A DNA stretch of 42,221 bases, from positions 1 to 42,221 of the IMG/VR virus record IMGVR_UViG_3300020465_000035; one strand, given 5' to 3'. The translations under genes were made by a program, and so were the position numbers. This document shows, piece by piece, positions 38,402 through 38,767 of the stretch (its first letter is position 1; every line of letters begins with the position of its first letter). The notes under the pieces were generated by a model. That model was not told the origin of the DNA. It did not search any database and saw only the letters and a list, made by a program, of their open reading frames with translations. The DNA comes from a virus.

Positions 38402-38415
38402 CGACTTTTTTAAAC

Positions 38416-38444
38416 AAAAAATCTGGGAAAAATTTTTCCCAGAT
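38416..38444 (-). terminator. Strong palindromic terminator after the riboswitch-controlled peptide gene
   Basis: A 24-base perfect palindrome (38421-38444; each arm ATCTGGGAAAAA) followed by TTTTT on the minus strand. It lies 27 bases after the DUF4278 gene's stop and isolates it from the thyX operon. Confidence 0.9.
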
Positions 38445-38471
38445 TGATGTCAACCAAAAACGATTTTTGGT

Positions 38472-38612
38472 TTAGCTCTGAGAAGCAAACTTACGTTTTA
38501 CTTTAATACCACGATACATTAGATCATGATTTCTCTGTTGAGCTTCTTCTTGTACCATCTTACGGTACTCTTCAGAGTCATATTTGACTCCACGGTAAGT
38601 GACTTGTGCCAT
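38472..38612 (-). CDS. 46-aa DUF4278-like peptide controlled by a tandem glutamine-type riboswitch
   Basis: From ATG 38612, with GAGGAC 9 bases upstream; the longer frame from 38672 begins inside the RNA element's stem-loop and is rejected. MAQVTYRGVKYDSEEYRKMV, then EEAQQRNHDLMYRGIKVKRK. The two YRG(V/I)K motifs are those of DUF4278, the short peptide found behind the Downstream-peptide RNA motif in marine picocyanobacteria and their phages. Host relatives under glutamine riboswitches include glutamine synthetase inactivating factors, so a role in nitrogen assimilation control is inferred, not shown. It has its own promoter and terminator, forming a one-gene unit. Confidence 0.8.
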   Translation of the reverse strand: MAQVTYRGVKYDSEEYRKMVQEEAQQRNHDLMYRGIKVKRKFASQS

Positions 38613-38643
38613 TGGCTTGTCCTCAGTAGTAGGGTGAATAACC

Positions 38644-38684
38644 CGTTCCTTCAGTCGGCATTTGCGTCCCATATGGGATGAACG
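38644..38684 (-). promoter_or_regulatory. Glutamine-type riboswitch (Downstream-peptide/glnA motif), gene-proximal copy
   Basis: CGUUC (38684-38680) pairs with GAACG (38648-38644). Inside is UCCC-AUAU-GGGA, then CGCAAAUGCCGACUGAAG. The order CGUUCA, short hairpin, GCAA.U, GCCGAC, GAAGGAACG is what I recall of the glutamine-sensing RNA of cyanobacteria. It ends 32 bases before the peptide's start codon. Confidence 0.75.
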
Positions 38685-38688
38685 ATTC

Positions 38689-38731
38689 CGTTCCGTGTCG
38701 GCTTACTTGCGACCTCTTACGAGGTTGAACG
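38689..38731 (-). promoter_or_regulatory. Glutamine-type riboswitch, distal copy (tandem)
   Basis: CGUUC (38731-38727) pairs with GAACG (38693-38689), enclosing ACCUC-GUAA-GAGGU and then CGCAAGUAAGCCGACACG. Same plan as the proximal copy, four bases away. The predicted transcript start of the upstream promoter falls right at its 5' edge. Confidence 0.75.
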
Positions 38732-38738
38732 TAATGCT

Positions 38739-38767
38739 ATGTTAGCATATCCTAATTATTTAGACAA
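38739..38767 (-). promoter_or_regulatory. Sigma-70-like promoter for the riboswitch unit
   Basis: TTGTCT (38767-38762), a 17-base spacer and TAACAT (38744-38739) on the minus strand; start of transcription would be near 38732, the first base of the tandem RNA. This position fit supports it, though neither hexamer is perfect. Confidence 0.6.

Follow-up and report, generated by a model that had tools for sequence, protein, structure and literature searches.

The window analysed here is the whole of the 42-kb IMG/VR virus record IMGVR_UViG_3300020465_000035 (42,221 nucleotides), which contains phoH, thymidylate synthase and single-strand-binding-protein genes and a gene that we take, from its sequence, to be psbD. 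Because these genes occur together with a manA RNA and a tmRNA of cyanobacterial type, the sequence identifies the window virus as a T4-like marine cyanophage. The manA RNA (35305-35107, minus strand, 156.2 bits) immediately precedes the gene for the single-strand DNA-binding protein (phrog_224), not a sugar gene. The tmRNA (14627-14332, minus strand), apparently of the permuted type, thus shares this record with a glutamine riboswitch. PMC9004378 calls the combination rare; it reports a glutamine riboswitch next to the tmRNA of a phage and gives AG-345-P14 as an example that carries the two. AG-345-P14 also has a short-loop array according to our general scan for aptamer units.

A complete small transcription unit occupies positions 38767-38403 on the minus strand and consists of a probable promoter, two glutamine-I aptamers, a Shine-Dalgarno sequence, an open reading frame (ORF) for a 46-amino-acid DUF4278 peptide and an intrinsic terminator. 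The probable sigma-70-like promoter (38739-38767) has a -35 element TTGTCT (38767-38762), a spacer of 17 nt and a -10 element TAACAT (38744-38739). Its predicted start is at about A38732, one base ahead of aptamer copy 1. The sequence thus supports the first-pass annotation, which had placed the start exactly at the first copy, although with 8 of 12 matches the promoter falls under the 9/12 threshold of our promoter scan and is absent from its output. A TTGAC...TAnnnT pair stands at the equivalent place upstream of the first aptamer in most of 75 relatives, as judged by eye and not counted. An inverted repeat, ATGCTA-ACA-TAGCAT (38734-38748, minus strand), surrounds the -10 element. In a repeat scan of the regions upstream of first aptamers, the best arm reached at least 5 nt in 138 of 203 regions, with a mean of 5.3 compared with 3.7 after shuffling. 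The letters of the arms vary between phages, for example, TGTGTTA-GTAT-TAACACA, GGTATG-CTAA-CATACC and TGTCATG-CTAT-CATGACA.

Aptamer copy 1 (38689-38731, minus strand) has P1 CGUUC/GAACG, P2 ACCUC/GAGGU and the core CGCAAGUAAGCCGAC, and copy 2 (38644-38684, minus strand) has P2 UCCC-AUAU-GGGA and a CGCAAAUGCCGAC-UGA core, which on comparison of 3' core types is of the kind that terminates a nested gene in relatives. A GCAA(G)U / GCCGAC core is common to both. The two CGUUC...GAACG elements had been noted in the first-pass annotation, and sequence, pattern scan and the Rfam model RF01739 all confirm them, so that the window has the two like aptamers in one leader by which a tandem riboswitch is recognised. 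Asked for as a check, the covariance model accepted copy 2 (37.2 bits, E 1.6e-6; cut-off 35) and left copy 1 below the cut-off (24.0 bits, E 0.0072 in a search of 521 bases); both were recovered again in a second RF01739 search. Since its structure and core are conserved in relatives (the core is identical in 194 distinct viral leaders of our sample), copy 1 appears to work like a glutamine-I aptamer even though the Rfam model alone does not file it as one. The class of glutamine-II (Downstream-peptide) RNAs, RF01704, also put forward for checking, was rejected for copy 2, which scored 26.8 bits, below both the cut-off of 33 and its own RF01739 score. The linker GAAU (38685-38688, minus strand) can form a hairpin with the flanking GAACG and CGUUC that excludes both P1 helices. 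The spacing of four bases given earlier is true of the P1 ends, whereas the Rfam model edges of the two copies abut (38687/38686).

The expression platform (38620-38643, minus strand) has a short GGU/ACC hairpin after P1, followed by the Shine-Dalgarno sequence GAGGA (38624-38620). The peptide ORF (38472-38612, minus strand) encodes two YRG(V/I)K motifs, and its product belongs to DUF4278 as first proposed, with a PF14105 score of 27.9 bits (cut-off 25.3) that covers profile positions 27-55 only. It also matches phrog_5049 (E 2.8e-22), and tblastn led from it to 57 phage records. The first-pass annotation suggested that the virus may adjust host nitrogen assimilation. We do not favour a role of the peptide in adjusting glutamine synthetase: its 46 amino acids are a piece of DUF4278 only, and the DUF4278 N terminus of the inhibitor IF17 is dispensable for glutamine synthetase inhibition and mainly stabilises the protein (PMC6316151). 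Nor does the window peptide have the part beyond DUF4278 that would be expected of an IF17-like inhibitor. The same review does not settle what DUF4278 proteins do when they stand alone. Downstream (38403-38472, minus strand), the hairpin CCAAAAAUCGUUUUUGG precedes the intrinsic terminator, whose 11-bp stem (38445-38420) is followed by a T run (U in the RNA). The first reading of the terminator holds, with one found against 0.2 expected and a fold z of -4.06 that none of 200 shuffles matched; for the leader alone, fold energy is uninformative (z -0.02). A blastn search returned 120 phage records, all of them Synechococcus or Prochlorococcus phages, cyanophages or marine viruses, in agreement with the phage origin assumed from the outset. 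Conservation across these records excludes a chance origin of the unit.

Linker length and folding models

Related loci were gathered through phage records matched by blastn and tblastn, 16 of which were opened, through thyX neighbours (80 of 600 matches) and through two aptamer patterns, for which the loci are those among the matches listed. Because the loci come from the matches listed and the leader finder requires the phage copy-1 consensus, the proportions below describe this sample only. It holds at least 194 distinct first-aptamer leaders, the window included. The 5' strand of a second P1 begins 3-6 nt after the first aptamer in 191 of the 194, and its 3' half was also found in 183, which we call complete leaders. 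Their linkers measure 3 nt (92 leaders), 4 nt (79), 5 nt (9) or 6 nt (3). A second scan that permitted linkers of 0-11 nt gave 3-6 nt in 169 of 169 joined pairs. The three leaders without a close second P1 strand are L226, L234 and L263; L226 (3340-3480) and L263 (2000-2120) have a longer linker between the aptamers that holds complementary stretches of its own.

With a second P1 strand only 3-6 nt away, the inner P1 strands are able to pair with each other in a hairpin, in which case neither aptamer can form. When the alternatives were forced in folding models, the GAACG-N3-6-CGUUC hairpin state was more stable than two P1 helices in 50 of 50 short-loop leaders, with mean energies of -35.9 and -29.2 kcal/mol, respectively, in the absence of ligand. 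The unconstrained ensemble lies near the hairpin state, and the hairpin is present in the minimum-energy fold of the window. These models suggest one barrier for two binding sites, and the sequence offers a specific reason for cooperativity here, namely that a single linker hairpin would compete with both P1 helices. Any two aptamers of this class that abut could form such a hairpin, and the possibility by itself therefore proves little; the narrow range of linker lengths is the real evidence, and it could also serve stacking.

Genes within the P2 loops

The P2 loop of the second aptamer is short in 71 of the 183 complete leaders, as in the window, and 138-245 nt long in the other 112. In each of these 112 leaders of the sample, the loop holds a whole gene of about 50-65 codons. 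A general scan returned 379 distinct aptamer units with a P2 loop of either 10-39 nt (219 units) or 130-249 nt (160 units, for whose detection at least four P2 pairs were required) and none between. If s denotes a short loop and N a gene-holding loop, the arrays comprise 82 sN, 49 ss, 21 NN, 17 Ns and 41 single units; the last include detection misses such as P-HM1, which is double on closer reading. The Ns and NN arrays show that the first aptamer can also hold a gene. Among the 16 phage records, sN is the commonest reading (10), with ss and NN assigned to 3 each. In the window, itself a member of this family, both loops are short and neither encloses a gene. One locus, L145 (6500-6900), has a triple array in which a plain aptamer, a gene-holding aptamer and another plain aptamer precede a DUF4278-like ORF.

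Placement of the enclosed genes is regular. An AUG lies 3-6 nt after CGUUCA, in or at the top of P2, in 159 of the 160 long-loop units; the remaining unit, in L145, was paired falsely across the triple array. At the other end, 109 of the 112 second-position ORFs terminate within the aptamer, on a UGA or UAA that immediately precedes the 3' strand of P1, and at the first position the UAA of the conserved CGCAAGUAA can serve as the stop. Substitutions in 295 pairs of enclosed ORFs number 2527, 1281 and 4371 at codon positions 1, 2 and 3, a skew that marks these ORFs as genes under coding selection. They belong to phrog_504, phrog_6471, phrog_13397 and a fourth group, of which one member was tested and had no PHROG match. 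Weak cross-matches suggest that phrog_504 is distantly akin to members of phrog_6471 and phrog_13397. A separate enclosed family beginning MTKALLLLAWVPLLS... (66-69 amino acids; 18 of 159 enclosed ORFs; the tested member without a PHROG) has a signal-like N terminus and sits in the first aptamer in L068, L115, L120, L141, L225, L240 and others. The annotations of S-SSM7, S-SSM5 and P-RSM4 list enclosed genes as hypothetical proteins (T4-GC 430 and 429), and that of P-SSM2 lacks them. All seven phage records that have phrog_504 have it once, at the enclosed place. An AlphaFold2 model of one enclosed protein gave two helices (mean pLDDT 72.7, pTM 0.48) and was too weak for a fold search.

Covariation of P2 was tested in the 112 gene-enclosing leaders with anchors on CGUUCA and the 3' core only and with no pairing demanded. 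Pairs 1-5 are standard in 112, 112, 112, 110 and 107 leaders, respectively. For pairs 4 and 5, the best of 2000 permutations of the 3' strand reached 78 and 74; C-G, A-U, U-A and U-G are all used at these pairs, and a slide of 1-3 bases destroys the signal. No excess over permutations was found at pairs 7 and 8 in the same leaders. The covariation of P2 and the placement of starts and stops together indicate that the aptamer has been kept working around the enclosed gene, and from these comparisons the gene-enclosing anatomy of the relatives is well supported.

Gain, loss and hosts

Leaders L021 and L031 are near-identical, but a short hairpin loop in one corresponds to a 138-nt gene loop in the other. 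In the thyX set, a recognised unit was present in 42 of 81 cases and a complete pair in 38, which form the tree; the other 43 are off the tree, 12 of them with a short upstream region and no unit. The 38 complete arrays require 17 changes of array type compared with a shuffled mean of 19.0, so that nesting is barely clustered. Array type differs between strongly supported sister groups; the window, for instance, is ss, and L007, the relative nearest to it, is Ns. Genes thus appear to come and go at the aptamer loop site, the loop content changing often.

Under stricter filters, RF01739 was found in 54 of 151 sampled host-family genomes, and no adjacent pair was present among the matches listed for these 54. 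Family phrog_504 was found in none of the 151, while the positive control recovered it in 7 of 9 phage records, the two others being the short-loop phages P-TIM68 and S-PM2. Across 84,980 species genomes, the joined two-aptamer pattern occurred in 3 contigs. On the last two counts, an origin in hosts was rejected. Within the 16 phage records, RF01739 marks 15 places in 13 records, all of them short-loop copies; none of the gene-enclosing copies in these records was matched, and the three double-gene arrays of P-HM1, S-TIM4 and P-RSM4 gave nothing. Covariance-model surveys can therefore be expected to undercount these aptamers.

Discussion

We consider it fairly probable that the window carries a self-contained glutamine-I unit of a T4-like marine cyanophage in which a hairpin couples two aptamers, glutamine turns on the DUF4278 gene, and the P2 loops are sites at which whole genes can dock under opposite control. 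When glutamine is absent, P1 of the first aptamer would lend its 3' strand to a pairing, across the 3-6-nt linker, with the 5' strand of the second P1, and this would hold both aptamers open. With glutamine, this hairpin would break and both P1 helices would form together, giving a cooperative response. By analogy with the glutamine-I riboswitches of cyanobacteria, the DUF4278 gene would then be switched on. A whole small gene may dock in the P2 loop of either aptamer, with its start in or at P2 and its stop usually provided by the aptamer's UGA or UAA. With a start codon in or at the top of P2, a closed aptamer should block initiation, and in relatives glutamine would thus silence the enclosed gene while activating the one downstream. 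Ribosomes on the enclosed gene should, in turn, hold the aptamer open. Reciprocal control of the two genes is what we infer from this arrangement. Against it, the closure of the enclosed AUG in models stems partly from forcing P2, and for the AUG alone the hairpin state was the more open one in only 51 of 82 cases.

A more general proposal, on which our judgement is about evenly balanced, is that these aptamers are gene containers with a start in P2 and a stop in the core. Because of that placement, an aptamer could either bind its ligand or leave the enclosed gene free for translation, but not both, the enclosed gene being off when DUF4278 is on; neighbouring aptamers would be coupled by the hairpin, and the contents, from at least three PHROG families and one unclassified group, would come and go.

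It is possible, if rather unlikely in our view, that the leader is an ordinary tandem switch of two independent, additive ("pseudo-cooperative") aptamers with a linker of no particular role, and that the loop genes are passengers in a tolerant loop. Tandem glutamine riboswitches are known and have been read in this way (PMC9481103), and the 17 changes of loop type on the 38-row thyX tree, close to the shuffled 19.0, are as expected of a freely exchanged cassette. A linker without a role does not fit the restriction to 3-6 nt in 191 of 194 leaders, and mere passengers would fit poorly with starts 3-6 nt into P2, stops mostly on one aptamer codon, P2 covariation across the gene and the finding of phrog_504 a single time, in the enclosed position, in all 7 phage records that have it.

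That glutamine represses the DUF4278 gene in the window phage seems to us improbable. The window's Shine-Dalgarno sequence was less open with the aptamers formed (0.06 versus 0.44) in models that omit ligand and tertiary contacts, which at face value is an OFF switch. Against this, both published types of glutamine riboswitch activate with glutamine (PMC6316151), and the same kind of model, again without ligand or tertiary structure, gave no consistent direction across 50 leaders, the Shine-Dalgarno sequence being more open with the aptamers formed in 29. Stems of at least 5 bp cover it in 64 of 140 leaders compared with 35% of shuffled sequences (4 bp in the window itself); with this weak enrichment and models that show no direction, sequestration of the Shine-Dalgarno sequence was rejected as the switch. 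Hairpins with stems of 5-6 bp follow P1 in 58 of 146 leaders compared with 7% after shuffling. Some models pair the copy-1 core with the start of the DUF4278 ORF over a long range, which may follow from codon choice. Finally, we find it hardly credible that the halves around enclosed genes derive from two separate aptamers that decayed on either side of an ordinary gene: Rfam is indeed blind to the gene-enclosing units, including the three gene-gene arrays, but P2 covaries between the halves, and the 3' core and P1 are intact in both.

Riboswitches are usually read as untranslated leaders. If hairpin-coupled aptamers can enclose genes as we propose, ligand binding and ribosomes would contest the same RNA directly, and one switch would have two outcomes. 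The design can be tested in laboratory cyanobacteria and in the known phages P-SSM2, P-HM1, S-SSM5 and S-SSM7, and it bears on why these cyanophages sense glutamine during infection.

Several elements of this system are already in print, namely glutamine riboswitches in T4-like cyanophages (PMC9602691, PMC9964418), tandem copies and the link to DUF4278. Earlier work described glnA RNAs, some of them tandem, and Downstream-peptide RNAs (PMC2864571). Glutamine riboswitches include 157 doublets and 4 triplets, for which a sharper (pseudo-cooperative) response is the published reading (PMC9481103); the sharper response that the first-pass annotation expected of the tandem thus has a precedent for such riboswitches generally. 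The genes behind glutamine aptamers are mainly DUF4278 genes, and with both types glutamine increases expression (PMC6316151). What appears to be new is the strict linker with its competing hairpin and the gene-enclosing P2 loops. In the literature searched, which left most subscription journals uncovered, we found no description of a gene inside a riboswitch aptamer, and we do not claim that none exists.

The gifB type of RF01739 in cyanobacteria resembles the cyanophage version in aptamer sequence, P1/P2 layout and downstream DUF4278 gene (PMC6316151), whereas the latter is phage-borne, has two copies 3-6 nt apart and, in relatives of the window phage, holds a whole gene in P2. Glutamine-II RNAs share the small downstream peptide and a similar 5' element, but copy 2 scores below their cut-off. 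Tandem pseudo-cooperative riboswitches likewise have two like aptamers per leader (PMC9481103, PMC2864571); unlike these, the cyanophage leaders have a linker across which the inner P1 strands can join in a single competing hairpin, a feature unmentioned in the relevant passages of both papers. The nearest published parallel that we found is the interplay of B12 switches of Mycobacterium tuberculosis with an upstream ORF, where a short leader ORF, through its translation, influences the gene that follows the switch (PMC11260477). The cyanophage arrangement differs in that the aptamer loop itself contains a gene, of about 50-65 codons, which takes its stop codon from the bases of the aptamer.
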